The notes below the pieces were generated by a model. The model did not search any database. It was not told where the DNA came from and saw only the letters and a list, made by a program, of their open reading frames with translations. Of a stretch of DNA of 64,000 nt, positions 10,636 to 31,181 are shown piece by piece; positions within the stretch are counted from its first letter, which is position 1, and every line of letters begins with the position of its first letter. The translations under genes were made by a program, and so were the position numbers. Origin of the DNA: Dongia deserti (GTDB lineage: Bacteria; Pseudomonadota; Alphaproteobacteria; Dongiales; Dongiaceae); NCBI RefSeq assembly GCF_003574735.1, contig NZ_QORW01000010.1, positions 124,001-188,000 on the forward strand. The letters are read 5' to 3'.

Positions 10636-10650
10636 GTACGGTTGTGATCG

Positions 10651-11202
10651 ATGAGGAAAGCCAAGCGCATCACGATCGACGTGCGTGCCGCGGAGGTCGC
10701 GGACGTTGATGCGCTCACGCGGCTCTTCACCCATCGCAACGCCTATGCGCAGACCCTGCAGCTGCCGCTGCAGAGCACGGAGCTCTGGCGCAAGCGCCTG
10801 GCGGAGCCAAGCGACAATCACCACGCCTTGGTCGCGACGGTGAACGGCGAGCTGGTCGGCAATCTCGGCCTCACGCGTTTCACCCGCCCGCGCCGCGCGC
10901 ATGTGGGAGAGATCGGCATGGCCGTGCGCGACGACTGGCAGGGCAAAGGCGTCGGCTCGGCCCTGATGAAGGCGGCTCTCGAGCTCGCCGATAATTGGCT
11001 CGGCCTGCGGCGCTTGGAGCTCAACGTGTATGCCGACAACGAACGCGCGATCGCGCTCTATCGCAAGTTCGGCTTCGAGATCGAGGGCACGCACCGTGCC
11101 TATTCGATCCGGAACGGAGCGTATGTCGATTCTTTGTCCATGGCGCGCCTGATCGAAGGCCCCCGCATGCCTACAGACAAGCGCCGCAAATCAGATCGTT
11201 AA
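10651..11202 (+). CDS. GNAT N-acetyltransferase, AaaT/YhhY-like
   Basis: E. coli AaaT (YhhY) acetylates the alpha-amino group of some amino acids. This 183-residue protein matches it along its length: LTRLFTHRNAYAQTLQLPLQ, then LWRKRLAE, then ELVGNLGLTRFTRPRRAHVG. The acetyl-CoA loop is DDWQGKGVGSALM. LRRLELNVYADNERAIALYR, FGFEIEGTHRAYSIRNGAYV and SMAR follow. The start has a modest upstream site just past the gcrA terminator. Substrate is inferred from family resemblance only. It converges with the methyltransferase-like gene 6 bases away. Confidence 0.85.
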   Translation: MRKAKRITIDVRAAEVADVDALTRLFTHRNAYAQTLQLPLQSTELWRKRLAEPSDNHHALVATVNGELVGNLGLTRFTRPRRAHVGEIGMAVRDDWQGKGVGSALMKAALELADNWLGLRRLELNVYADNERAIALYRKFGFEIEGTHRAYSIRNGAYVDSLSMARLIEGPRMPTDKRRKSDR

Positions 11203-11208
11203 CGTGGC

Positions 11209-12564
11209 TCAGCGCCTGCCGTTGGCGAGCGGGGGCTTGGCGGTCGAGGGGCTGATGGTGCGGTTCTCGTAGCGGCCCTTCTGGAGATAATGGACCAGCG
11301 GATTGGTCTTCATCACACGCACGTCGGGATAGGCCTCGAGATAGGCCTGCGACGAGAACATCGGCGAAGGGTCGCGGCCTTCGAACCCGCCATAGAGCAC
11401 GTAATGCAACGCCGGCGGGATGCCGACTGCCGCCACGTCGGGATATTGGCGGAGATACCACGCCTCGTGCATCAGGCCGCTCCTCAGCACCAGCTTGGCA
11501 TGGCGGTACGGCTTCATCTGCTTCTTCATGCGGGCGAAGCGGAAGGTCGTGATCCAATAGGCGCACATCGCCCATTGCCGCATGTTGTAGATGGCCCAGC
11601 GGTGATTCTTGACCAGCCGCCGCGCCGGCTTGGTGATGCGCCACCAGATGCTTTCCTCGACCTTGCGCAGGCGCTTCAGCGTCTTCACGTGATCGACGCG
11701 CGCCGCGGCCAGGGCGTCCTTCGCCGCGCTCAGCGCGGACTCAAGCTTGGCCACCTGGTCGCTGTCGAGGGCCGCATGCAAGCGGCGGCGGACGTCGGTC
11801 AGCTCGGCCTGGATGGCGACCATGCCGCCCAGCCGCGCGAACATCTCGCGCACTTCCAGCGCCCGCGTGGCTGTCGCATCGAGTGAGAAGAGATGCTGCA
11901 GGGCGGGCGGCAGATCCTCGCCGATGCCGAGGACGCCGAGACCGCCGCCATGCACGAATTCGAAATGCGGGTATTTCTCCGCAAGCACGTGCCACAGCTC
12001 GAGCGTCTCTGTCGCGATCGCCGGATCGTCGATGCCGTGGACCAGCATGATCGCGCTCTTGGAGAGCTTCGGCAGCCAGGCGCGATAGTGCTGCGCCAGC
12101 GCTCCGCGCTCCATCGCATCGATGCTAATGAGATCGATGGTGCCGTCCTCGCAACGCTCGAACATCTGCTCGGCTGGCAGGAACTGCGAGAACTGCGCAT
12201 AGCGTGCATTGTGATACTGCGTGCGCTCGTCGCGGCTCGTGCCGCTACCGGAAATTGCGTAGCAGCGCGTCGGCAAGCGTAACCGGCTGACCGCCTGGCA
12301 AAGGCCCAGATAGGACGCGGACGGCGCCTCGACCAGTTCCACCAGCGCCATGGGGCGCAGGGCATCCACCAGCCAGAACAGGAACGGCACATGCTCCGAG
12401 CGCGGCACGGCATCGACCCGATCGGGCGCCCAGAACATCGCGGGCGTGACAAAGCCGCCGCCGAGCCGCGACCACCAATTACCCAATTCGATTGGAACGC
12501 CGGTTGCGCCTGCGGCCTCACCTAACGCGATCTTTTCAGCGCCGATCGGCGTCTCTTTTGTCAA
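11209..12564 (-). CDS. SAM-methyltransferase-like protein with C-terminal YPDV repeats
   Basis: The N-terminal half (ALVELVEAPSASYLGLCQAV, then IDLISIDAMERGALAQHY, then SAIMLVHGID) resembles a class I methyltransferase of the surface-polysaccharide type. A coiled stretch follows (near AKLESALSAAKDALAAARVD). The C-terminus has two copies of a short repeat common in bacterial glycosyltransferases: WYLRQYPDVA...HYVLYGGFEGRDP and AYLEAYPDVR...HYLQKGRYENR. A role in glycan decoration is inferred. The start is uncertain: the frame is open to 12678, the first ATG is at 12438, and I favour TTG at 12564, which follows a G-rich tract. It is divergent from arsR. Confidence 0.62.
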   Translation of the reverse strand: MTKETPIGAEKIALGEAAGATGVPIELGNWWSRLGGGFVTPAMFWAPDRVDAVPRSEHVPFLFWLVDALRPMALVELVEAPSASYLGLCQAVSRLRLPTRCYAISGSGTSRDERTQYHNARYAQFSQFLPAEQMFERCEDGTIDLISIDAMERGALAQHYRAWLPKLSKSAIMLVHGIDDPAIATETLELWHVLAEKYPHFEFVHGGGLGVLGIGEDLPPALQHLFSLDATATRALEVREMFARLGGMVAIQAELTDVRRRLHAALDSDQVAKLESALSAAKDALAAARVDHVKTLKRLRKVEESIWWRITKPARRLVKNHRWAIYNMRQWAMCAYWITTFRFARMKKQMKPYRHAKLVLRSGLMHEAWYLRQYPDVAAVGIPPALHYVLYGGFEGRDPSPMFSSQAYLEAYPDVRVMKTNPLVHYLQKGRYENRTISPSTAKPPLANGRR

Positions 12565-12711
12565 AGGCCACACCCCCCAGAAGCAGCCTGCCAAGGAATC
12601 AGGAAAAACTTCAGGAAAGCAAGTCCGGAGAAGAACCAGGAGGATTTCCAGCCACTTGCTGTTGCTCCCGTGCTGCAACGGCCCCTTGCAAAGCCGAGTC
12701 GCTGATGATAC

Positions 12712-12727
12712 TTAAGCACATGCTTAA
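12712..12727. promoter_or_regulatory. Inverted repeat overlapping the arsR start codon, probable operator
   Basis: TTAAGCA-CA-TGCTTAA is a perfect 7-bp inverted repeat with a 2-base centre. It includes the ATG at 12720. ArsR proteins paired with SRPBCC genes commonly autoregulate through compact palindromes of this kind, so this is the likely operator for the whole operon. If the upstream ATG (12705) is used, the repeat lies within codons 3-8. Confidence 0.65.
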
Positions 12728-13070
12728 CCAATCGGTCGCGCTCGATTTCATGTTCCAAGCGCTCGCCGACCCCAGCAGGCGGGTAATGGTGGAGCGGCTG
12801 ACCCGCGGACCGGCGTCGGTGAGCGAGTTGGCGAAGCCCCTCGCCATGTCCCTGCCGGCGGTCGTGCAGCACCTACAGGTGCTCGAGGCGAGCGGTTTGG
12901 TCCGATCGGAGAAGGTGGGTCGCGTGCGCACCTGTCACCTCGAACCAAAGGCGCTGCGGACCGCGGAGCAATGGATTGCGGAGCGGCGCACGATCTGGGA
13001 GCGCCGCCTCGACCGGCTCGGCGAGATTCTCGCCGCCGAGCAAGAGGAGACGGACAAGAGCAGCGCGTAG
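12720..13070 (+). CDS. ArsR family regulator (SRPBCC-associated subgroup)
   Basis: This winged-helix repressor (116 residues from ATG 12720) starts MLNQSVALDFMFQALADPSR. The DNA-binding helices are RRVMVERLTRGPASVSELAK and AMSLPAVVQHLQVLEASGLV, with the wing SEKVGRVRTCHLE. It lacks the CVC metal-binding site of metal-sensing ArsR proteins, as usual for this subgroup. An in-frame ATG at 12705 is an alternative start. It leads a co-oriented set with a glutathione transferase and two SRPBCC proteins, the usual partners. Confidence 0.9.
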   Translation: MLNQSVALDFMFQALADPSRRVMVERLTRGPASVSELAKPLAMSLPAVVQHLQVLEASGLVRSEKVGRVRTCHLEPKALRTAEQWIAERRTIWERRLDRLGEILAAEQEETDKSSA

Positions 13071-18613: not shown

Positions 18614-19192
18614 TCACCCGCGCAACGGCCAGCGCGCGAGCGGAATGTAGCGATTGCGGCCGAGCAGGCTGTGCACGAGCGCGAACTCGCGGACGGTCCA
18701 ACTTACCGGCTCGATCGCCTGTTCTTCGACCTCTCGGCTGCCATAGAGCAGGGTGAGATGCGGAAGCCAGCTCGGCCCGATCCAGCGTCCAAGACCGGCG
18801 CGCTCCATCGCCGGGCCGAGCTTGTGCTGAAACTGTACCAGCCCGACGAGGCCATCGCCGCCGGCGAGGACCAAGGGCCGGTCGCGCCGGTTGCCGCGCA
18901 GGCTCTTCACGCGATCGAAGGCAACGCGGAATGGCGGCATTTCGATTGTGGAGACGACGTCGCTCGCCTCAACAACCACGTTCGCGGAAACATGAGAGGC
19001 AACGTAGTGCAGAGAGACATGGAAGCGCCACACTGCGAGCGGCCGGCCAGTCAGCTTGTGCTTGTCACGCACGCGGCGTGCGATCTGCGCGATGCGCACG
19101 GACGCTTCCTCGTCCGGAAGAATCGCCACGAACACGCTCTCCGTCGGCAGCGGCGAGGCTTCGAAACCCGCGAAGGACAGTTGCTCCGGCAT
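18614..19192 (-). CDS. 2'-5' RNA ligase / 2H phosphoesterase family protein (ThpR-like)
   Basis: The 192-residue protein carries the two HxS/T motifs that define 2H phosphoesterases, RFHVSLHYV in the first half and LPHLTLLYG in the second, with SVFVAILPDEEASVRIAQIA at the start. Bacterial ThpR acts as a 2',3'-cyclic phosphodiesterase or RNA ligase in vitro; its cellular role is unclear. It stands alone, downstream of and codirectional with the marR gene. Confidence 0.87.
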   Translation of the reverse strand: MPEQLSFAGFEASPLPTESVFVAILPDEEASVRIAQIARRVRDKHKLTGRPLAVWRFHVSLHYVASHVSANVVVEASDVVSTIEMPPFRVAFDRVKSLRGNRRDRPLVLAGGDGLVGLVQFQHKLGPAMERAGLGRWIGPSWLPHLTLLYGSREVEEQAIEPVSWTVREFALVHSLLGRNRYIPLARWPLRG

Positions 19193-19252
19193 CGTTGGCC
19201 CTCCGGCACGGCCTTACATCAGCTTCCTACCCGCCCGCCGAAGGTGCAACAC

Positions 19253-19711
19253 TCAGCTGTCGATAAGCGCTTCAGCCTGATTTGCGAGGCGCCGCGGAAG
19301 GTCGGGTGAGAGGAGCTTCGCCAACCTGGCGTGCGCCTTGCGCCACAGGGGGACCGCAGCTTCCAGCCGTCGCGCGCCGGCTTCGGTCAGCCACACCGCA
19401 CGGCGCCGGAGATCGCTCTCCACCACGGCGATCTCGATCAGCCCCTGCCCTTCGAGGGTGCGCAGATTGCGCGACAAGGTGGATTGCTCGAGGCCCGTGC
19501 TGCGCGCCAGGGCGCCCAGCGTATCGTCCCCGGCCGAGGCGATCTGCGCCATGAGGCCGAGCTGGGCCACGGACAGGCCGCTGTCCGCCAGCTCGCGGTC
19601 CAGGAACTGGGTGATGCGCCGGGCAGCCAGCCGGCTGTTCCAGCCGGCACAGCTCTCCACCAGGGCGCGGGCATCGGTGCGCAAGGTCTTGCGCTGCATT
19701 GACGAGGTCAT
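19253..19711 (-). CDS. MarR family transcriptional regulator
   Basis: The 152-residue winged-helix protein has a dimerisation helix (GWNSRLAARRITQFLDREL), then LSVAQLGLMAQIAS and the HTH TLGALARSTGLEQSTLSRNL with TLEGQGLIEI. The wing is ESDLRRRAVWLTEAGARRLE. It is divergent from the DUF488 gene; two perfect palindromes lie in the 45-base gap and are its likely operators. Confidence 0.9.
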   Translation of the reverse strand: MTSSMQRKTLRTDARALVESCAGWNSRLAARRITQFLDRELADSGLSVAQLGLMAQIASAGDDTLGALARSTGLEQSTLSRNLRTLEGQGLIEIAVVESDLRRRAVWLTEAGARRLEAAVPLWRKAHARLAKLLSPDLPRRLANQAEALIDS

Positions 19712-21147: not shown

Positions 21148-22530
21148 TTAGGGCCTGATGTTCTGGTTGACGCGAAACAGGTTGAGCGGGTCGTACTCGC
21201 CCTTGATCGCCACCAACCGGTCGTAGTTCGCGCCGTAGGACGCGCGCACGCGCTCCTCGCCCTCGTCATCCATCATGAAGTTGATGTAGGCACCGCCATG
21301 CTTGTTGTGCCTGTGGATCGCAGCCCAATAGTCCCTGGCCCACTGCTTGAGCGCGGGCGCCTTGGCGGGATCCGGATCAATGCCGGCGATCACCATGGAC
21401 CAGCGTGCCCGCCGGGCGCCCCAAGCTGTGGCGTCCGGTGCCGCCTCCTGCACGGCGCCGTCGATTGGATAGAGATGCATCAGCGAGAGTTCGCTCGGGC
21501 TCTTCGAGCCATGCTCGATGTGCGTCGCGATGGCAGCGTCGGGCAACTCGTCGACATAGTCGCCCTTCCAGTACCATTGCAGCCCCTTGGGAAGCAGCGG
21601 ATCGAACATGGCCTGCAGGCTGACGAACGGCATCTGTGCCACGCCGTCCAGCAGCGGCGCGGGCAAGGCCTCCCGTACCGGACGCATCGCCTCCTTGCCC
21701 GCGGACTCGCTGCCGTTGTAGCAGCAGATCAGGGCGCAGATCCGGCGCCCCCAGATCTCCTTCGGGAACGGCTCGCACGATGGCACCATCTTCAGGCCGA
21801 AGAAGACGGCAAGCTCGCGCGGCGCCGTGGGCAGGAAGTCACGGTACCAGTGCATGATTTCCGCGGCATGAGCGATGTCATAGAGAATCGGGCCGGCATA
21901 CACATCGCCGACGGGGTGCGCGCGATAGGTGAAGCTGGTCACCACGCCGAAATTGCCGCCACCGCCGCGCAGCGCCCAGAACAAATCGCCATTCTCCTTT
22001 TCGCTTGCCGTGACCAGCCGGCCATCCGCCAACACCACCTCCGCCGAAACCAGATTGTCGATGGTGAGGCCGTGCTTGCGCGTGAGATAGCCGGTGCCGC
22101 CCCCCAGCGTCAGGCCCGCAATGCCGGTGGTCGACACGATGCCCGCCGGAACGGCAAGGCCATGCTTGCTGGCCGCCGCGTCGACCTCGCCCTGGGTGCA
22201 GCCGGCCTGGACCGGGACGATACGGGACTTGGGGTCGATGTGGATGCGCTTCATCGGCGACAGGTCGATGACCAGCCCGCCATCGCAGCTGCCGAGGCCG
22301 GCGCCGTTGTGGCCGCCGCCGCGGATGGCCAGCAGCAGGTCATGGGTGCGCGCGTGGTTGACCGCGGCGATGACATCCTCCACGTCGGCGCAGGGCACGA
22401 TCCAGGCGGGGCGCTTGTCGATCATCCCGTTGTAGAGCGCGCGCGCCGCGTCGTAGTCGGGGTGATCCTGGCTGATGAGGCGGTCCCGCAGGCGGTGCGG
22501 GAAATCGGATGAATTGAACGAGCCGTGCAT
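21148..22530 (-). CDS. FAD-linked oxidase, berberine-bridge-enzyme-like
   Basis: The 460-residue protein has the FAD_binding_4 domain: LLAIRGGGHNGAGLGSCDGG with the His that usually carries covalent FAD, then VSTTGIAGLTLGGGTGYLTR. The C-terminal BBE motif ends YDRLVAIKGEYDPLNLFRVN. The second covalent anchor (Cys) of bicovalent BBE enzymes is not evident. Such enzymes oxidise sugars, alcohols or secondary metabolites and release H2O2. The ATG at 22530 is the family start. It is divergent from an AraC gene, which probably controls it. Confidence 0.9.
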   Translation of the reverse strand: MHGSFNSSDFPHRLRDRLISQDHPDYDAARALYNGMIDKRPAWIVPCADVEDVIAAVNHARTHDLLLAIRGGGHNGAGLGSCDGGLVIDLSPMKRIHIDPKSRIVPVQAGCTQGEVDAAASKHGLAVPAGIVSTTGIAGLTLGGGTGYLTRKHGLTIDNLVSAEVVLADGRLVTASEKENGDLFWALRGGGGNFGVVTSFTYRAHPVGDVYAGPILYDIAHAAEIMHWYRDFLPTAPRELAVFFGLKMVPSCEPFPKEIWGRRICALICCYNGSESAGKEAMRPVREALPAPLLDGVAQMPFVSLQAMFDPLLPKGLQWYWKGDYVDELPDAAIATHIEHGSKSPSELSLMHLYPIDGAVQEAAPDATAWGARRARWSMVIAGIDPDPAKAPALKQWARDYWAAIHRHNKHGGAYINFMMDDEGEERVRASYGANYDRLVAIKGEYDPLNLFRVNQNIRP

Positions 22531-22625
22531 GAAGTTCCTCACTTTCTGCGTCGATATGGGCTTTCGAGGCGCGCGAGGGTAGATTTCCCGGTCAAATCGG
22601 GCTATGCCGGTCCATCGGAACTCAA

Positions 22626-22691
22626 TTGCAGATCGTCTTGAATCCAACGCCGAGTTGATCTCGCGTCCGGATTCATTTGCAGTTCGTCCTG
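22626..22691. promoter_or_regulatory. Direct repeat, candidate AraC binding sites
   Basis: TTGCAGATCGTCTTG (22626-22640) and TTGCAGTTCGTCCTG (22677-22691) match at 13 of 15 bases in the same orientation, 51 bases apart, about five helical turns. Direct repeats of this size between a regulator and its divergent target are typical AraC-family sites. Confidence 0.55.
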
Positions 22692-22710: not shown

Positions 22711-23692
22711 ATGGACGTACTATCGGATGTACTGAAGGCCGTGCGGCTGGATGGAGCCGTTTTTCTTCAATGTGCGCGCCAGCGAACCAGTGCGCGCCCA
22801 TACCCCCAACATGGCGCTGGTCGGACATCGCCTGATGCCCGGCGCAGCCAATGTCATACCGTTTCACATCATGCTGGCCGGGCGATGCTGGGTGGAGTCG
22901 ATCGATGGCGATGATCCATCCGCCGAGTTCTGCGAGGGCGACATCGTCATCTATCCCCATGGGCACGGCCACATCTTCGTGACGAATCGTGGCGAGCGGG
23001 AGGAGCCGAGATTGGAGGCCTACCACCGGTACGACGGCCAACCGCTTCCCATCATGATGCATCTTGGCGATGAACCGGAGCAGCTCCACTTTGTCTGCGG
23101 CTATTTCGGATGCGATGCGACACCTTTCAATCCGCTGCTCGAGGCACTGCCTTCTCAGGTGTTGGCGAAGCGACCGCCGGAAGGCAACCATATCGAAGTG
23201 GACCTGATCCACAATGCGATCGCCGAGTTCGAGCACAATCGCGCCGGAAGCGAGACCATCCTGGCGCGGCTGAGCGAGTTGCTGTTCGTGCGGGTGTTAC
23301 GGCGCTACATCGAGCAGTTGCCGGAACATTCGAGCGGCTGGCTCGCGGGGCTGCGCGACCCGCAGATCGGCAAGTCGCTGCAGCTCATCCACGCGCAGCC
23401 GGCGCGCGACTGGACGCTCGAGAAGCTAGCGCGCGAGAGCGGCATGTCGCGCGCGATCTTCGCCGAGCGCTTCGCAAGATGCGTCGGCGAGACGCCGATG
23501 CGTTATCTCGCCAAGTGGCGCATGCAGCTCGCAGCGCATGCGCTGAAGCAGCCGGGTGCGACCGTCGAGATCGTCGCAGAGAAGGTCGGCTACCAGTCCG
23601 AGGCAGCCTTCAATCGCGCCTTCAAGAGCATCGTCGGCATGCCGCCAGGCAGCTGGCGCCGCTCAACCACCGGCGCGCTAGCGCGCGATTGA
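22711..23692 (+). pseudogene. AraC family regulator with cupin-like sensor domain, frameshifted near codon 18
   Basis: The family start MDVLSDVLKAVRLDGAV is at 22711. The remainder (FFNVRASEPVRAHTPNM onward) is in another frame. The switch falls in a run of five T residues at 22760-22764, and removing one T restores a single frame. The C-terminal HTH is intact: LEKLARESGMSRAIFAERFA, then ETPMRYLAKWRMQLAA, then VGYQSEAAFNRAFKSIVG. The AraC_binding_2/cupin_6 sensor is also complete. An ATG at 22751 could give a nearly full protein lacking about 17 residues. A homopolymer error is quite likely. Confidence 0.8.
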
Positions 23693-23908: not shown

Positions 23909-25273
23909 ATGGCACTGACTCGCGGCGCAATCGAGGCGATGGCTCCGGACCAGAGCGCGCTTGCCGCCGCATCGAAATTGCTGCAGCCCGCGAAATGGCC
24001 GGCGCGCGGCCGATCCGGCGGACTGATCTGGGGCGAATGCCAAGGCTCCGGCGCCAATCCCTACCGCGTGGTCGCCGACACCGCTGATCCGGGGTCGAAA
24101 TGCACCTGCCCCTCGCGCAAGTTTCCGTGCAAGCACGCCTTGGCCCTGATGTGGATGTTCGTCGAGGACGAATCCGCCTTCAAAGCCGGCGACGTACCGG
24201 ATTGGGTCAATGACTGGATGGGCCGGCGCCGGAAGAGCGGCGGCGGCGCTGCTCAATCCGGCGGTGCCAAGAGCCTGGATGCCGCGCGCGCGGAAGCCGC
24301 CGAAAGCGCTCCCGATCCGGAAGCGGAGGTACGGAGGAAGGCAGCGTCCGAAAAGCGCGCCCAGGATACGCGGCGATCGGTTCTTGCCGCGACCGAGGAG
24401 CTCGAAATCTGGATCGCCGACCAGCTTCGCACCGGTCTCACCAGCTTTCTCGGCGATCTCGGCGGTCGATGCCGGCGCATTGCCGCGCGGCTGGTGGACG
24501 CGAAGGCCAACGCCCTCGCCAGCCGCGTCGACGAGATGCCGTCCCGGCTGCTGAGCCTGTCAGCGGAGGAGCGTGTCGACGCTGCGATTCAGGAACTGGG
24601 CAAGCTGGTGCTTCTTGTCCGCGCGTGGCGCGCCAATCCCGATGAGCCGGAGCTGCGCCGCGAGGTCATCGCATCGGAGACGCGGGATGACGTGCTGGCC
24701 AATGCCGAGTCACTGCGCGTGACATCGCGGTGGGAGGTCCTGGGCGAACGCATTGCCACGCGGCGCGACGGATTGGTGAGCCAGACGACGTGGCTCATGA
24801 ACGTGGGCCCCGGGCCGCAGCGTTTTGCCATGCTGCTCGACTTCTTCCCCGCGTCCGCGGGTCGCCGCGCAGGCGCATTCGTGGCCGGCGAGCGATTCAG
24901 CGCGGAGCTCGCCTTCTATCCCGCCAAGGCGCCACTGCGCGCCGTGATCGCGTCGCGCGGCGATCCGGAAAAAGCGTCCGCTGACTGGCCGACGGCGGGC
25001 GACGATCCGTTTGCGGACCATGCCGAGCAGATGCTGGTTGCGCCATGGCGGATCGACGCGCCGCTGCTGTTGCCGGAGGGCCGGATCTGCGCGGACGCAG
25101 CGGGCCGTGCGTGGTGGCGGTCAAATAGCGATATGTGGGCGCCGTTGCGCGACGTGCCGCCGGCACTCGCGCTGGGTGCGTCGATCGAGAGCGCGGCCGG
25201 CATCTGGGACGGCGCGCGGCTCTCGCTGATCGCCGCGCAGACGAATTGGGGGACGCTGGGCTTCGATGCGTGA
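23909..25273 (+). CDS. SWIM zinc-finger domain protein
   Basis: The 454-residue protein opens MALTRGAIEAMAPDQSALAA. Its SWIM zinc finger is SKCTCPSRKFPCKHALALMW, with Cys65, Cys67, Cys74 and His76 in the CxCx6CxH pattern. SWIM fingers bind nucleic acid or protein partners. A basic, Ala-rich linker (from about 105) and an alpha-helical region follow, then a C-terminal beta-rich part. It starts a five-gene operon, and its stop overlaps the next gene by 8 bases. The SWIM/DUF5691/MoxR/DUF5682/VWA set recurs together in several phyla; I know of no biochemical assignment. Confidence 0.85.
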   Translation: MALTRGAIEAMAPDQSALAAASKLLQPAKWPARGRSGGLIWGECQGSGANPYRVVADTADPGSKCTCPSRKFPCKHALALMWMFVEDESAFKAGDVPDWVNDWMGRRRKSGGGAAQSGGAKSLDAARAEAAESAPDPEAEVRRKAASEKRAQDTRRSVLAATEELEIWIADQLRTGLTSFLGDLGGRCRRIAARLVDAKANALASRVDEMPSRLLSLSAEERVDAAIQELGKLVLLVRAWRANPDEPELRREVIASETRDDVLANAESLRVTSRWEVLGERIATRRDGLVSQTTWLMNVGPGPQRFAMLLDFFPASAGRRAGAFVAGERFSAELAFYPAKAPLRAVIASRGDPEKASADWPTAGDDPFADHAEQMLVAPWRIDAPLLLPEGRICADAAGRAWWRSNSDMWAPLRDVPPALALGASIESAAGIWDGARLSLIAAQTNWGTLGFDA

Positions 25274-26690
25274 CATCGACTCATCCCTTGCACGAATCCG
25301 CAACGCGTGGATGGCCGGACGTTCGGCGCTGGAGCATTGCCCGGTCGCTTGGCGCGACGGCACGTCGGGCGATGGCGGAGAATGCGCGCTCATCGCGCTC
25401 ACCGGCCACGCAACTGCGGTGCTGTTCCGGCCGGCGCCACCCGCGCCCATCGCACCACGCCCGCTCCTGCCGGCCCTCGCCTTTCCGACTGTACCCGAGG
25501 GCGCGCGGCCGCGGCTGCGCCGGTTGCTGGCGCGGAAGAACGGCGCCTCGCTGGAACGGTCGCTGATCGATCTGGTCACCGCGCGCGGCTTCGCCATGCA
25601 TCCCGCTGATTGGATGCCTTCGCCACGCGACGATTGGGCGCCCGATCTCTACGCCCCGTGGCTCGACTGGGTGCGTGCCGAAAGCAAGGCGGCGCCGGCC
25701 TCCGACCTCACGCTCGAGAACTATGACCAGTGGTCGTGGGCCGAGCGGCGCGTCGAGCTCGCCGCCTTGCGTCAGCGCGATCCCGCAGCGGCGCGCGCCA
25801 TCATTGCCGCGAAGGCGGCGACGGAAGCGGCCGAACGGCGCGTGAAGCTAATCGAAATCCTGGAAAACAACCTGTCGGCGGACGACGCGGAGTTCCTCGC
25901 GACGCTGGCGAAGGATCGGTCCGAACGCGTGCAGGCCTTGGCCTCCGCCTATCTCGCACGGCTCGGCCGTCACTCCGACTCCGATGCGCTGGCAAAGGAG
26001 TTGGCGGAGATGCTGGAGGTCGGCAAAGTCGGACTGGTCACGCGGCGCACACAGCTGGTGATTAAGCCGCTCAAGAACGCGACGCAGAACACGCGGCGGC
26101 GGGAGCTGTTCAAGCTCGTGAGCTTTTCCAACCTCGCGCAAGCGCTTGGGCTCAGCGAACAGCAGTTGCTCGAGAGCGCGCCCGCCGGTGTCGAGGACGG
26201 CATCGCTGAGTTCGTGCAGATGATCGGCGCGACCGGGTCGGATGAGGCACGCCGCTTGCTGCTGGACCGCATGGTGCATGACACTGACTTCCCGTTCGCG
26301 CATGCGCGCTGGCTCGGTCCGCGGCTGACACCAACGGAACGCCGCGCCGTCCTGTCGCCCGTCTTGGTGCGCGATCCGAACCTGTTCGAAACGACCGTGG
26401 TCCTGATGGGTAGCACCCTGGGCGAGGCGCCGATATCGGCACTAGAGAAGTCGCCCGGCTATGCCGCTCTGGAGAGCTCCATCGCAAGCGTTCTGGAGGC
26501 CGACGACAAGACGCGCACGACGATCGAGCCCATGCTGGAATCAACGCTCAATCGCGTCGCCTTGCTGGCGGATGCGCGTGCCGCAGCCGAGCTGATCAGC
26601 CGCGTCACATCCAGGGGTCTCTCGCCCGCCGATCCGAGACTCGAGCTCTTGCACCTCAATGCCGCTTTGACACAGGAGACCAAGCCTTGA
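25266..26690 (+). CDS. DUF5691 family protein
   Basis: The 474-residue protein has no membrane segment. After a variable N-terminal part it is alpha-helical and repeat-like, in the style of HEAT/ARM repeats: WSWAERRVELAALRQRDPAA, RVKLIEILENNLSADDAEFL, then RSERVQALASAYLARLGRHS and RRELFKLVSFSNLAQALGLS. This pattern and position match DUF5691, always found next to SWIM and MoxR genes of this system. It is probably a scaffold. It overlaps its upstream neighbour by 8 and its downstream neighbour by 4 bases (TTGA), implying coupled translation. Confidence 0.8.
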   Translation: MRDIDSSLARIRNAWMAGRSALEHCPVAWRDGTSGDGGECALIALTGHATAVLFRPAPPAPIAPRPLLPALAFPTVPEGARPRLRRLLARKNGASLERSLIDLVTARGFAMHPADWMPSPRDDWAPDLYAPWLDWVRAESKAAPASDLTLENYDQWSWAERRVELAALRQRDPAAARAIIAAKAATEAAERRVKLIEILENNLSADDAEFLATLAKDRSERVQALASAYLARLGRHSDSDALAKELAEMLEVGKVGLVTRRTQLVIKPLKNATQNTRRRELFKLVSFSNLAQALGLSEQQLLESAPAGVEDGIAEFVQMIGATGSDEARRLLLDRMVHDTDFPFAHARWLGPRLTPTERRAVLSPVLVRDPNLFETTVVLMGSTLGEAPISALEKSPGYAALESSIASVLEADDKTRTTIEPMLESTLNRVALLADARAAAELISRVTSRGLSPADPRLELLHLNAALTQETKP

Positions 26691-27766
26691 CCGAAGCACT
26701 GCGCCTTCCCGCGGAGAAGATCCATGCTGCCGAACTCGAGGCGCTGAAAGCGGACGACAAGGAGCGCAGGCCACCAGGCTGGGCGCTCTCGCCGCGCGCC
26801 GCCGTCACCTATCTGATGGGTGGCAAGGCGGCGAACGGTATGCCGATCAGCGCCAAATACGTTGGCGACAAGCGCCTGATCGAGACGGCGGTCGCGACCC
26901 TCGCCACTGATCGCGCGCTACTGCTGCTCGGCGTGCCGGGCACGGCGAAGTCCTGGGTCTCGGAACATCTGGCAGCCGCCGTCAGCGGCGATTCCACCAT
27001 GGTCATCCAATGCACCGCCGGCACGGATGAGAACCAGGTGCGGTACGGCTGGAACTACGCCCAGTTGCTGGCGCACGGCCCGTCGCGCCAGGCACTGGTT
27101 CCGACGCCGCTGTTCCGCGCCATGGAAGCGGGCAAGCTGTGCCGCCTGGAAGAGCTGACGCGCATGGGATCGGATGTGCAGGATACGCTCATCACCGTGC
27201 TGTCGGAGAAGATGATGCCGATCCCCGAGCTCAACGAATCCGTCTATGCCGTGCGCGGGTTCAATGTGATCGCCACTGCCAACAACCGCGACAAAGGTGT
27301 CAACGAATTGTCGTCGGCCTTGAAGCGCCGCTTCAACGTGGTGGTGCTGCCTCTGCCGGACGACATGGAGCAGGAGATCGCGATCGTGACCAAGCGCGTC
27401 GGTGAGATGGCGCAGAGCCTGGACTTGCCGGCGCCGAAGAACGTGAGCGAGGAAGTCGCGCGCGTGGTCGCCATCTTCCGCGAGCTGCGCGGTGGTGCGA
27501 CCATGGACGGCAAGATCACGCTGAAGACACCCTCCGGCACCTTGTCCACCGCAGAGGCGATCGCCGTCATGATCGGCGGGCTGAGCCAGGCTGCGTTCTT
27601 CAACGGCGGCAAGCTCTCGGCCGAGGGTCTCGCGCCTAACATGATTGGCGCGATCGTCAAAGACCCCGTGCAGGACAAGGTAGTGCTGGAGGAATATCTC
27701 GAAACCGTGCTGAAGAAGCGGCCGGACTATGCCGATTACTATCACATGCTGAGCGATCTCACCTGA
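26687..27766 (+). CDS. MoxR-type AAA+ ATPase
   Basis: The 359-residue AAA+ ATPase has Walker A GVPGTAKSW (residues 82-90), a Walker B-like KLCRLEELTR, sensor 1 IATANNRDKGVNELSSALKR with the arginine finger region RRFNV, and a C-terminal lid. MoxR ATPases act as chaperones that activate or assemble partners, usually through a VWA protein, and a VWA gene is the last in this operon. The start codon is TTG at 26687, inside the TTGA overlap with the DUF5691 stop. ATPase function is secure; the client is unknown. Confidence 0.92.
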   Translation: MTEALRLPAEKIHAAELEALKADDKERRPPGWALSPRAAVTYLMGGKAANGMPISAKYVGDKRLIETAVATLATDRALLLLGVPGTAKSWVSEHLAAAVSGDSTMVIQCTAGTDENQVRYGWNYAQLLAHGPSRQALVPTPLFRAMEAGKLCRLEELTRMGSDVQDTLITVLSEKMMPIPELNESVYAVRGFNVIATANNRDKGVNELSSALKRRFNVVVLPLPDDMEQEIAIVTKRVGEMAQSLDLPAPKNVSEEVARVVAIFRELRGGATMDGKITLKTPSGTLSTAEAIAVMIGGLSQAAFFNGGKLSAEGLAPNMIGAIVKDPVQDKVVLEEYLETVLKKRPDYADYYHMLSDLT

Positions 27767-27769
27767 TCC

Positions 27770-30031
27770 ATGGCGTCCGAGATCCGCATCTTCGGCATTC
27801 GCCATCACGGGCCGGGCTCCGCGCGGCGCCTGGTGGAGGCGCTCGACGAGCTGCGGCCGTCGATGGTGCTGATCGAAGGGCCGAGCGATGCATCGGATCT
27901 GCTGCCGATGCTAGCCGATCCGGCGATGGTCCCGCCTGCGGCTTTGCTTACCTATGCTGCGGACGATCCGACGCGCTCGATCTTCTGGCCGTTCGCGACC
28001 TATTCGCCGGAATACCAGGCGGCCTGCTGGGCGGTGCGTAGCGGTGCTACGGCGCGTTTCATCGATCTGCCCGCCAGTTGGCGCCTGGCGCCCCCTCCAT
28101 CGGAGGAAAGCGCCGAGACCGAGGCCGAGGCGACCGATGGCGCACCGGAGGCGGAGCCTGATGCAGAGGTGCAAATGCTCGAGCGCGATCCGGTCGGCGT
28201 GCTAGCGAAGGCAGGGGGCTACGAAGACGGCGAAAGCTGGTGGCGCGACATCATCGAGGAGAATCCCAAGCCTGGTCCGGTGTTCGCCGCGATTACCGAG
28301 GCGATGACGGCGCTGCGCGAAGCGTCGACGCCGGTGCAAGGCAAGGAGGCTGCGCGCGAGGCGCATATGCGGCTGGAGATCGCCAAGGCAGCGAAGGAGA
28401 CAGAAGGCGCTATCGCCGTCGTCTGCGGCGCCTGGCACGTGCCGGCGCTGCGGGCGAAAGTCTCCACCACGGCCGATCGCGCACTGCTCAAGGGCGCGCC
28501 CAGGCAGAAGATCATGGCGACCTGGGCGCCATGGACCTCGCCACGCCTGGCCTTCGCGAGCGGCTATGGCGCCGGCGTCGCCGCGCCCGGTTGGTGCGCG
28601 CATCTGTGGGTAGCACCGCGCCACGAGATCGCCACGCGCTGGCTGGCGCGGATCGCCGGCGCCCTGCGCGACGAAGGGCATCTGGTCTCTACCGCTTCCG
28701 TGATCGAGGCGGAGCGGCTGGCCGTCAGCATCGCCGCCTTGCGCGGCCGTCCGGCACCCGGTTTCGAGGAGCTGCGCGAGGCGGCGATCGCGTGCCTCTG
28801 TTTCGGCGAGAGCCTGGTCTGGCAGACCATCGCCCAGCACTTGCTGATCGGCGGGGAGGTCGGACGGATTCCGGACAATGTGCCGCTGGCGCCGCTGCTC
28901 GAGGATCTGCAGCGCGAGCAGAAGCGCGTGCGCCTCAAGCCCGAAGCGCTCGACCGCGAGCTGGCCATCGATCTGCGGAGCGAGAGCGGGGTCGACCGTT
29001 CGACGCTGCTGCATCGCCTCACCTTGCTCGGCGTGCCGTGGGGCAAGCTGGCGGACGCGGGGCGCAGCCGCGGCACGTTCCGCGAGCGCTGGGTGCTGCG
29101 CTGGGAGCCGGAGTTCGCGGTTCGCCTGGTCGAAAACCTGGTCTATGGCCCCACCATCGCCCAGGCGGCGGCCGGGCGCATCAGCGCCGAGTTCGACAAG
29201 GCGAGCGATCTGAAGGCGCTCGCCAACCTGGTCTTCTCCGCTCTCACCGCGCGGCTACCTGATGCAGTCGAGCGTGGCATTGCGCTCATCGAGCAGCGGG
29301 CGGCGCAGACCTCGGACTGCCTGGAGCTGCTCGCGGCATTGCCGCCCTTGGCCGACACCGTGCGCTACGGCCAGGCGCGCCCGACCGATGCCGACCAGCT
29401 TGCGTTTCTGCTGACCCGCATCCTGGTTCAGGGCGCGCTGGCCTTGCCGTACGCGGCACGCGGGCTGGATCAGGGCGCGGCGGCGACGATGCGCGGTGTC
29501 ATCCTAAGTGCCGACGGCGCCGTGACGCTCGCGGAGATCGGCGGTGACGAGCAGAAGGCCTGGCGCCAAGCGCTGCGCGCGCTGATCGAGGATACGCAGG
29601 TGGCGCCACTGATCGCCGGTGCGTCGGCGCGCCTGCTCTACGAGGCCGAGGAGCTGTCGCCCGACGATGCCGCAATGCTGCTTGGCCGCGCCTTGTCGCC
29701 CGGCCGCGCAGTGGCCGATGCCGCCGGCTTCTTCGAGGGCTTTTTCGAGGGCGGCGGCGAGCGCCTGATTCATGACAGGGGTCTGCGCGATGCCGTCGAT
29801 CGCTGGATGCAGAGCCTGGACGAGCAGCATTTCACCGAACACCTGCCGCTGTTCCGCCGTGCCTTTTCCAATCTCGATCGCATGCAGCGCAGGCGCCTGC
29901 TCGATGCCTTGTTCGGCCGCGCCAGTGCCGGCCTGCCCGGCCGCACGCTCGCGCCCAATGTGGAAGAGATCTGGCCAAGGCACCTGGAAAGACTCACTGC
30001 AATCCTGACTGCGGGGCCGGCCAATGAGTGA
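27770..30031 (+). CDS. DUF5682 family protein
   Basis: This large 753-residue protein opens with EIRIFGIRHHGPGSARRLVE, followed by LRPSMVLIEGPSDASDLLPM. Downstream it is a long, mostly alpha-helical region (for example CLCFGESLVWQTIAQHLLIG and DAVERGIALIEQRAAQTSDC). The N-terminal GxRHHGPGS / hhIEGP pattern resembles the GTxH...VxxE motif of the TraB/ChaN/TIKI hydrolase-like superfamily, which suggests a metal-dependent hydrolase; that is inference. It follows the MoxR gene by 3 bases and overlaps the VWA gene by 8. Confidence 0.82.
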   Translation: MASEIRIFGIRHHGPGSARRLVEALDELRPSMVLIEGPSDASDLLPMLADPAMVPPAALLTYAADDPTRSIFWPFATYSPEYQAACWAVRSGATARFIDLPASWRLAPPPSEESAETEAEATDGAPEAEPDAEVQMLERDPVGVLAKAGGYEDGESWWRDIIEENPKPGPVFAAITEAMTALREASTPVQGKEAAREAHMRLEIAKAAKETEGAIAVVCGAWHVPALRAKVSTTADRALLKGAPRQKIMATWAPWTSPRLAFASGYGAGVAAPGWCAHLWVAPRHEIATRWLARIAGALRDEGHLVSTASVIEAERLAVSIAALRGRPAPGFEELREAAIACLCFGESLVWQTIAQHLLIGGEVGRIPDNVPLAPLLEDLQREQKRVRLKPEALDRELAIDLRSESGVDRSTLLHRLTLLGVPWGKLADAGRSRGTFRERWVLRWEPEFAVRLVENLVYGPTIAQAAAGRISAEFDKASDLKALANLVFSALTARLPDAVERGIALIEQRAAQTSDCLELLAALPPLADTVRYGQARPTDADQLAFLLTRILVQGALALPYAARGLDQGAAATMRGVILSADGAVTLAEIGGDEQKAWRQALRALIEDTQVAPLIAGASARLLYEAEELSPDDAAMLLGRALSPGRAVADAAGFFEGFFEGGGERLIHDRGLRDAVDRWMQSLDEQHFTEHLPLFRRAFSNLDRMQRRRLLDALFGRASAGLPGRTLAPNVEEIWPRHLERLTAILTAGPANE

Positions 30032-31181
30032 ACAGAGCGAGCGGCGCTGGCGCCTGGCCCTGGGTGGCGAGGATGAGCAGCTGTCGTCGCAAGACCAGCG
30101 CCTGTCCGCCGCGCTCACGGCGCTCTACGGCGAAGGCGACGACGATCAGAAGAAGAAGCGCGGTGGGTTGGGCAGCTCGGCGCCGAACGTCGCGCGCTGG
30201 ATGACCGACATCCGCCAATACTTCCCCGCGCCGGTGGTGCAGATCGTCCAGAAGGATGCGTTCGAACGGCTCGGCCTCAAGCGCATGCTGCTGGAGCCGG
30301 AGTTCCTCGCCGCGGTGGAGGCGGACGTCAACCTGGTCGCCAATCTGATCGCGCTGCGCAACGTGATGCCGGAGAAAACGAAGGATACGGCGCGCCAAGT
30401 CATCGCCAAGGTGATCGCTCAGCTGATGGAGCGGCTCGAGCGCAAGACCGCCGAGGCGCTGCGTGGTGCTGTGGACCGATCTCGCCGCACCAATCGGCCA
30501 CGCTTCGCCGATATCGACTGGCCGCGCACCATCCGCGCCAACCTGCGCCACTACCAGCGGGATCAGCGCACGATCGTGCCGGAGCGCCTGGTCGGCTTCA
30601 TGCGGCAGCAGCGGCGGCTGGTCGACCTGGACGAGGTCGTTCTCTGCGTCGACCAGTCCGGTTCGATGGCGAGCTCGGTGGTCTACGCCTCGATCTTTGC
30701 GGCGGTCATGGCCTCGCTGCCGGTCGTGAAGACCAAGCTGGTGTGCTTCGACACGGTCGTCCTGGATCTGACCGAAGAGCTGGCTGACCCTGTCGAGGTG
30801 CTGTTTGGCGTCCAGCTTGGTGGCGGCACCGACATCAACCAAGCCATCGCCTATTGCGCGGACCGGATCGAACGCCCGAGCAAGGCGCACCTGGTGCTGA
30901 TCTCGGATCTCTTCGAGGGCGGCTATGCGGAGGAGATGGTCGCGCGCATCGCCCGCCTGATCGGCCTGGGCGTGAATGTCATCGTGCTGCTGGCGCTGAG
31001 CGACACGGGGCGACCCGCGTACAATCCCGAGCTCGCGGGCCGCGTCGCCGCGCTGGGCGCGCCGGTCTTCGCCTGCACGCCCGACCAGTTCCCAAGCCTG
31101 ATGGCCGCGGCGCTGCGCCGGCAGGATCTCCACGCCTGGGCCGCGACCGAGGACATCAAGCTGGTGCGCCCGCCGGAGTGA
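30024..31181 (+). CDS. VWA domain protein, MoxR partner
   Basis: The 385-residue protein has a basic, helical N-terminal half and a C-terminal von Willebrand factor A domain. Its metal-ion-dependent adhesion site is complete: CVDQSGSMASS (Asp210, Ser, Ser), the threonine in GGGTDINQAI and the aspartate in LISDLFEGG. VWA proteins are the usual substrates or adaptors of MoxR ATPases; here they share an operon. The ATG at 30024 overlaps the DUF5682 3' end. No signal peptide is seen, so it is cytosolic. The 3' end overlaps the convergent YdhR-like gene by 26 bases. Confidence 0.9.
   Translation: MSEQSERRWRLALGGEDEQLSSQDQRLSAALTALYGEGDDDQKKKRGGLGSSAPNVARWMTDIRQYFPAPVVQIVQKDAFERLGLKRMLLEPEFLAAVEADVNLVANLIALRNVMPEKTKDTARQVIAKVIAQLMERLERKTAEALRGAVDRSRRTNRPRFADIDWPRTIRANLRHYQRDQRTIVPERLVGFMRQQRRLVDLDEVVLCVDQSGSMASSVVYASIFAAVMASLPVVKTKLVCFDTVVLDLTEELADPVEVLFGVQLGGGTDINQAIAYCADRIERPSKAHLVLISDLFEGGYAEEMVARIARLIGLGVNVIVLLALSDTGRPAYNPELAGRVAALGAPVFACTPDQFPSLMAAALRRQDLHAWAATEDIKLVRPPE

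Follow-up and report, generated by a model that had tools for sequence, protein, structure and literature searches.

Our analysis concerns a five-gene operon of Dongia deserti that lies on the forward strand at positions 23909-31181 of a 64,000-nt stretch of contig NZ_QORW01000010.1 (the window, to which all coordinates refer). According to the list of open reading frames (ORFs) and Pfam, five genes follow one another in tandem: a 454-aa SWIM zinc-finger protein (23909..25273, +; Pfam SWIM 5.3e-07), a 474-aa DUF5691 protein (25266..26690, +; 3.1e-18, a partial match over residues 134-281), a 359-aa MoxR AAA+ ATPase of the YehL subfamily with a TTG start (26687..27766, +; AAA_5 3.7e-36), a 753-aa DUF5682 protein that is the counterpart of E. 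coli YehM (27770..30031, +; 7.2e-223), and a 385-aa VWA (CoxE-like) protein that is the counterpart of E. coli YehP (30024..31181, +; VWA_CoxE 2.3e-54). Three of the four junctions are overlaps, of 8, 4 and 8 bases, the other is a gap of 3 bases, and the ORF coordinates and Pfam agree on the five tightly coupled genes of the original prediction for this DNA.

A DUF5682 scan of 84,980 species genomes yielded at least 580 relatives, of which we kept the best 80; these loci span about ten phyla by our own assignment from record titles and, because they are the best of a larger set, are biased towards the form seen in the window. The closest DUF5682 among them, from Caulobacter endophyticus, is 69% identical. 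All five families are found together in 70 of the 80 loci and in the window order in 63; in six of the 70 complete loci the SWIM-DUF5691 pair is divergent (Streptomyces and Streptantibioticus), in one it lies downstream, and five of the ten incomplete loci sit at contig ends (L026, L038, L053, L058, L091). SWIM and DUF5691 form a single reading frame in L042 and L062 (2/80), the L042 fusion being confirmed by Pfam. Across 67 sets, the pairwise distances of any one of the five proteins correlate with those of another at 0.79-0.92, with 500 permutations per pair reaching at most 0.18, and these correlations are partly due to shared descent. When 200 genomes evenly drawn from the phylum (our own included) were searched, DUF5682 was present in 10, the own genome counted, and DUF5691 exceeded its cut-off in five, exactly those with a window-form DUF5682; one extra DUF5691 match, in G009, was below cut-off and located elsewhere. 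DUF4132, a marker of the E. coli form described below, exceeded its cut-off in seven, that is, in all six genomes with the E. coli form and in one lacking DUF5682, and G196 was the single genome with both forms. That the five genes constitute a single machine is well supported, because order is conserved, co-occurrence is exclusive, SWIM and DUF5691 are twice fused and divergence is correlated; the original prediction had proposed this reading, and the co-occurrence in unrelated genomes by which it suggested checking it was seen here both in the related loci (70/80) and in the phylum sample (5/200).

Candidates for a conserved sixth flanking gene were rejected, the clusters listed being mainly out-of-frame shadows of the five genes plus Streptomyces synteny. 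Two peculiarities of individual relatives may be recorded here: in L023, an Akkermansiaceae metagenome-assembled genome, DUF5682 is 55% identical to the window copy and SWIM-DUF5691 lies downstream of VWA, either through transfer or through a binning error, and in L066 and L076 the MoxR and DUF5682 frames are about 4.3 and 3.1 kb apart.

The MoxR protein has the Walker A sequence GVPGTAKS at residues 82-89 (26930..26953, +), with G82, P84, G85, T86 and K88 present in 74/74 sequences (conservation counts for the SWIM, MoxR and VWA alignments include the window sequence). The acid pair of Walker B is usually DE; here it is E155-E156 in 74/74 sequences, and likewise in E. coli YehL. The VWA protein contains a metal-ion-dependent adhesion site (MIDAS) motif DxSxS at 30651..30665 (+), where D210, S212 and S214 together with D295 are found in 76/76 sequences and T269 in 74/76, as expected of the full MIDAS that had been predicted. 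A MoxR ATPase with a MIDAS-bearing VWA partner is also what NorQ/NorD and RavA/ViaA consist of, although the sequences are distant (RavA, 25% identity over 107 columns, 0.002; ViaA, 3e-05), and solved NorQ matches the window MoxR at 5.9e-6 whereas midasin scores better, at 7.8e-15. We know of no DUF5682, SWIM or DUF5691 partner of NorQ/NorD or RavA/ViaA. The closest E. coli MoxR protein is YehL (42% identity over 356 columns, 1e-81) and not RavA, and the order MoxR-DUF5682-VWA is that of E. coli, which places the window protein by sequence and by context in the YehL subfamily, one of seven named MoxR subfamilies (PMC3893208; this and the other papers given by PMC number are cited from the available part of their text).

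Comparison of profiles suggests that the N-terminal alpha/beta domain of DUF5682 (27782..28531, +) is probably a hydrolase domain of the TraB/TIKI type. It shows the signature of that group (G9xxH12, E36, R196, G220xxH223): two GxxH motifs, a glutamate after strand 2 and an arginine before the second GxxH. H12, E36, D99, R196, E197, G220 and H223 are constant in 87/87 DUF5682 sequences from both operon forms, and G9 is present in 83/87 (P in four). In 29 TraB/PrgY proteins G89, H92, E118, R288, G311 and H314 are invariant, so that the equivalents, in the same order, are H12/H92, E36/E118, R196/R288, G220/G311 and H223/H314, with near-equal spacing (first His to Glu, 24 residues versus 26 in TraB; Arg to last His, 27 versus 26). 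Differences from TraB/PrgY/TIKI proteins are the fusion to a long helical region, the location in a MoxR-VWA operon, a first motif that reads GIRHH, and E197 where most TraB proteins have N. With hhalign the DUF5682 and TraB/PrgY profiles matched at a probability of 84.5 (E 6.9e-6), above four unrelated control families (0.1-0.4); no column shuffle (0/199) reached this score, the reversed profile gave 1.4, and accepted relatives scored 90.7 (TraB-ChaN), 88.1 (ChaN-EreA) and 0.9 (TraB-EreA). The window-form sequences alone scored 76.1 against TraB, and the seven E. coli-form sequences alone 33.9 (first motif), with 5.9 against ChaN (second motif). A low-threshold alignment puts the second GxxH in register, and in the AlphaFold model (predicted local distance difference test score, pLDDT, 90.4) H12, E36, D99 and H223 lie at or near strand ends. 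The profile gave nine matches among Protein Data Bank sequences, at E values of 0.21 or more and mostly to ATP synthase subunit b, and the name DUF5682 appears in no paper of the literature searched. For the TraB/PrgY/TIKI superfamily of hydrolases the reference is Bazan et al. 2013 (as cited in PMC12329661), and for one TIKI family member the catalytic residues are described as two His and two Glu (PMC6254334).

If DUF5682 is such an enzyme, the MoxR and VWA proteins could serve its maturation. On this account, which we consider rather unlikely, they would insert or arrange a metal centre in DUF5682, in the way that NorQD serves nitric oxide reductase and CoxD/CoxE serve CO dehydrogenase, and the enzyme would then act alone with SWIM and DUF5691 as adaptors. 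Metal loading by a MoxR-VWA pair is possible: NorQD drives metal insertion (PMC13036017), the window VWA domain is of the CoxE family, the DUF5682 gene directly follows that of MoxR in the window, it stands between MoxR and VWA in 70/70 complete loci and in 5/7 loci of the E. coli form, and a TIKI protease is metal-dependent (PMC6254334). The same source also describes a metal-independent member of the family, however, a metal site in DUF5682 would be putative, and the scheme does not predict the damage control of the operon described below. A second, quite unlikely alternative is a TraB-like domain that has lost catalysis, with DUF5682 serving as a sensor or scaffold and the system acting through the remodelling of a DNA-bound client by MoxR/VWA alone. 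It would fit the lack of any TraB-like enzyme among the 50 Foldseek matches listed for the full DUF5682 model, and the TIKI superfamily is known to include a member that lacks the catalytic residues (PMC6254334), but the candidate active-site residues are invariant in 87/87 sequences across two divergent forms, which is unusual for a dead enzyme.

The SWIM finger CxCx6CxH that the original prediction had seen occupies residues 65-76 (24101..24136, +), and each Cys and His is kept in 67/67 aligned sequences. Judging from strand order in the AlphaFold model (pLDDT 91.8) and from Foldseek, the C-terminal beta domains (residues 270-451; 24716..25261, +) are probably of the oligonucleotide/oligosaccharide-binding (OB) fold type: residues 270-354 run beta-beta-beta-(turn)-beta-beta, with a second beta region besides, and 25 of the 50 matches listed are titled SSB, RPA/RFA, PriB, LEF-3 or CST (E 6e-3 to 0.28; probability up to 0.99; the lowest E-value among the matches listed being 6e-3). 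The best ZSWIM8 match had a probability of 1.00 and an E-value of 0.043. The modelled C-terminus would thus resemble, at weak E-values, the OB-folds of proteins that bind single-stranded DNA (ssDNA), and the SWIM protein is probably a nucleic-acid binder. This likeness is only a lead, because OB folds bind other ligands too and EF-P is among the matches listed; of the nucleic-acid or protein capture that had been suggested for the finger, the nucleic-acid part is weakly favoured by the OB-like matches. DUF5691 is possibly a helical scaffold.

E. coli K-12 has an annotated yehL-yehM-yehP-yehQ cluster whose MoxR-DUF5682-VWA core is colinear with ours (42%, 27% and 33% identity; BLASTP 1e-36 for DUF5682 with YehM and 5e-71 for VWA with YehP) and adjoins a SWIM gene. 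In E. coli, however, that gene (yehQ) is downstream, its product has no detectable similarity to the window SWIM protein beyond the finger, WGR and DUF4132 genes lie upstream, and DUF5691 was not detected. Among seven loci of this form, E. coli included, MoxR adjoins DUF5682 in 7/7, VWA is next in 5/7, a YehQ-like SWIM is present in 4/7, and 7/7 have a neighbouring DUF4132 or WGR gene (in L096 the WGR part only, before the contig end). Core DNA of yeh was found in 5301 of 5426 E. coli genomes, in 5162 of them over at least 80% of its length. We asked whether YehQ and YehI might be distant homologues of the SWIM and DUF5691 proteins in the window, but no homology was detected for YehQ (set of two full sequences), YehI or DUF4132, so that replacement by unrelated proteins is the simpler explanation. 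A literature search with yeh gene names and domain combinations gave no functional study among the matches listed, as far as titles and the openings of abstracts show. The "undescribed" of the original prediction is nevertheless not supported: YehL is a named MoxR subfamily (PMC3893208), yehLMPQ is annotated, and ddrTUVWX is named in Deinococcus (PMC5552922).

MolR is an old name for WGR/DUF4132 genes. We presume that MolR belongs to the yeh region of E. coli, where WGR and DUF4132 genes flank the cluster, and one could argue from this for regulation of molybdate or of the molybdenum cofactor. We find this extremely improbable: MolR has been tied to molybdate use (cited in PMC8533742), but in the available text of the same study molybdate genes are unresponsive to DdrO depletion in Deinococcus, and only two of the 80 loci were found to have DUF4132 beside the five-gene form.

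The Deinococcus genes point instead to DNA damage as the context of the single machine. As described in the available part of PMC5552922, ddrTUVWX (Deide_18730-Deide_18690) is a five-gene operon with a SWIM zinc-finger gene first and a VWA CoxE-like gene last, of unknown function, that belongs to the radiation/desiccation response (RDR) regulon induced by radiation via IrrE/DdrO. After irradiation the SWIM gene falls in the class induced more than 10-fold and three other genes in the class above 5-fold, and, of 7 Deinococcus species, 4 are marked as having the operon and an RDR motif (RDRM) box. The window likewise has five genes with SWIM first and a CoxE-like VWA last, and a D. taeanensis plasmid encodes the same five families in the same order, interrupted by one small additional ORF that separates MoxR from DUF5682 (identities to the window 35% for SWIM over 354 columns, 29% for DUF5691 over 96 columns only, 63% for MoxR, 40% for DUF5682 and 48% for VWA). 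Judged by the end genes and by the D. taeanensis locus, the window form is very probably that of ddrTUVWX, and its SWIM protein very probably the counterpart of DdrT. In D. taeanensis an RDRM-like box starts 36 bases before the SWIM gene; it is the sole site with two mismatches or fewer in 20 kb, a level reached by 12 of 5000 shuffles of the 120 upstream bases. A difference is that ddrTUVWX is controlled by IrrE/DdrO, for whose box the promoter in the window offers no match.

A second damage regulon is suggested by the Actinobacteria. The LexA-independent damage promoter motif tTGTCRgtg-N8-TAnnnT (PMC5656591) and the RecA-NDp motif used by PafBC (PMC6789036) are, in our own reading, one motif. 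Allowing one mismatch, RecA-NDp has 15 sites on both strands of 721,900 bases from 19 actinobacterial loci, and 13 of the 15 are at SWIM or MoxR promoters, in eight loci (five Streptomyces and one each of Nocardiopsis, Sphaerisporangium and Streptantibioticus). In six of the eight, 30 bases lie between the beginning of the site and the SWIM start used, and five loci have it on each side of the divergent pair. Each of 100 permuted patterns gave three sites or fewer in all and at most one at operon promoters. For the E. coli form, MolR, which shares the WGR domain, is described as LexA-regulated, and a DUF4132 operon is strongly up upon DdrO depletion in D. radiodurans (both PMC8533742). The stress role that the original prediction had offered is therefore upheld, as DNA damage, in Deinococcus (PMC5552922) and in some Actinobacteria, and finds no support at the window promoter. 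As a separate observation, the Mesorhizobium-type loci L019-L022 have, some 50-100 bases upstream of the SWIM start, the sequence GCTACA followed after about 20-25 bases by a TATCTAT-like element; by eye, this promoter-like block was not seen in the window.

Taken together, we would give about an even chance to the reading that the operon encodes a machine of the DNA-damage response in which MoxR-VWA controls a TraB-fold hydrolase where DNA is damaged. The YehL-type MoxR ATPase would pair with the VWA protein as a chaperone, like NorQ/NorD and RavA/ViaA, and the dedicated partner of this pair would be DUF5682, with an N-terminal TraB/TIKI-type hydrolase domain borne by a long helical solenoid. 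The zinc-finger SWIM protein, which also has OB-like beta domains, would bind nucleic acid, most likely ssDNA exposed by damage, and together with DUF5691 bring the complex to its site, where ATP-driven remodelling by MoxR/VWA would activate DUF5682 or feed it a protein substrate. We infer the hydrolysis, its substrate, ssDNA binding, the sequence in which the steps follow, what DUF5691 does and damage induction of the window copy; the TraB/TIKI-type domain and the OB-like folds are supported by computation.

Several observations weigh against this reading. On the enzyme side, the confident DUF5682-TraB alignment covers 40 columns only, from the first GxxH to the glutamate, the score falls to 54.6 with a trimmed TraB profile, and matches of ChaN and EreA to the whole DUF5682 set are not significant; Foldseek with the whole DUF5682 chain, in which the helical part dominates, gave no match at E <= 0.001, and the 50 matches listed are weak and mostly to helical repeats. 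The SWIM model likewise had no match at E <= 0.001, all OB matches lying above 1e-3. As for a single system, five window-type loci of the 80 look dispersed in the DNA examined (L032, L059, L064, L080, L093), the SWIM protein of the E. coli form is another one, DUF5691 was not detected there, and in two of its seven loci (L098, L096) DUF4132/WGR genes follow DUF5682 with no VWA gene in the DNA examined. For ddrTUVWX, the genes described in the available text are the first and the last, and one of the five, Deide_18700, is outside the table of induced genes (PMC5552922). RecA-NDp is absent at one mismatch or fewer from 11 of the 19 actinobacterial loci, and the eight positives are not independent because five are Streptomyces. 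At the window SWIM promoter, shuffled sequence does as well as the best LexA-type, RDRM and RecA-NDp matches (the best RDRM match has five mismatches, and 439 of 500 shuffles do at least as well), and over 76 upstream regions neither RDRM nor LexA-type boxes show clear enrichment, with nominal excesses for the Gram-positive type at one mismatch (3 vs 0.8) and the cyanobacterial type at two (3 vs 0.7). LexA boxes number 47 one-mismatch matches in the window against 40.7 expected, and exact matches upstream of relatives 0-1 of 68. Because its own promoter has no box and the other loci show no clear enrichment of the LexA-type or RDRM ones, damage control of the window copy is suggested by analogy. 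A LexA-like core 25 bases before yehF was given no weight alone, because that strand of the 16.3-kb locus has eight one-mismatch matches; our own LexA scan of the E. coli locus was at chance level.

The distribution of the operon also bears on an anti-phage or other conflict function. DUF5682 is a single copy in the 6.1-Mb host genome and occurs, own genome counted, in 1 of 4 genomes of the genus and 1 of 17 of the family; because of this, the operon (G+C 67.9%, window 64.5%) is regarded as accessory and probably acquired. Such patchiness (1/17 in the family, 10/200 in the phylum) and the MoxR-VWA core recall the MoxR-vWA ternary systems of PMC7159879, in which a dedicated third protein likewise accompanies the MoxR-VWA pair. 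Here, however, the third protein is DUF5682, and the five proteins have no Pfam VMAP, propeller or effector match; DUF5682, DUF5691 and SWIM do not occur in a word search of the available text of that paper. The MoxR match to bpMoxR (the MoxR-vWA-beta-propeller type) reached 26.7 bits, just below the cut-off of 27, PADLOC-DB 2.0.0 models had no match to the operon genes at E 0.001, and the E. coli core is near-universal (5301/5426). Defence-model matches make up at most 12 of 104 near the loci (seven families) versus at least 5 of 100 far from them, no clear excess, the far count being from 25 of 55 families listed and the comparison hence inexact; among the first 25 of 115 families, the nearest flanking genes include transporters, regulators and metabolic enzymes. 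A conflict system, one option of the original prediction, appears very unlikely in view of these PADLOC and flank results.

Returning to the damage-response machine, a specific version of it, tentative and doubtful, would follow a logic like that of SPRTN-p97: a damage-induced SWIM/OB protein marks ssDNA or protein-crosslinked DNA, MoxR-VWA pulls on the attached protein and the TraB/TIKI-type domain of DUF5682 cleaves it. If true, this would mean DNA-protein-crosslink repair in about ten phyla, unrecognised in E. coli K-12 as yehLMPQ. Both yehLMPQ and ddrTUVWX are already known as named orphan genes, apparently treated apart in the literature, and are joined here into one conserved system; new are a probable enzyme class for DUF5682, a probable nucleic-acid binder in SWIM and a second DNA-damage regulon, in Actinobacteria. 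With candidate active-site residues named, these E. coli K-12 genes and an unknown of the Deinococcus radiation response become directly testable.

The operon is preceded by an AraC-type regulator gene (22751-23692, +), itself adjoined by a gene for a FAD-binding berberine-bridge-like oxidase (21148-22647, -), and is followed by a convergent YdhR-like gene; no Rfam family reached its gathering score within the window. A LigT (2'-5' RNA ligase-like) gene at 18614-19711 (-) lies next to a MarR-type regulator, and that the Deinococcus damage regulon also has a ligT gene, according to the available text, is probably coincidence. DUF5682 itself turns up in two unusual places. On the Hymenobacter radiodurans plasmid NZ_CP037921.1 (86143-88327) the gene matches in three pieces with three annotations and is probably broken. 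Viral contigs gave three pattern stretches, none of them a relative, and among 50,697 phage records the sole match at E 1e-5 was MT835988.1, a 14-kb "Bacteriophage sp." record from human faeces that encodes a DUF5682 protein (30% identity) at 10638-12755 and whose DNA is possibly bacterial in origin.

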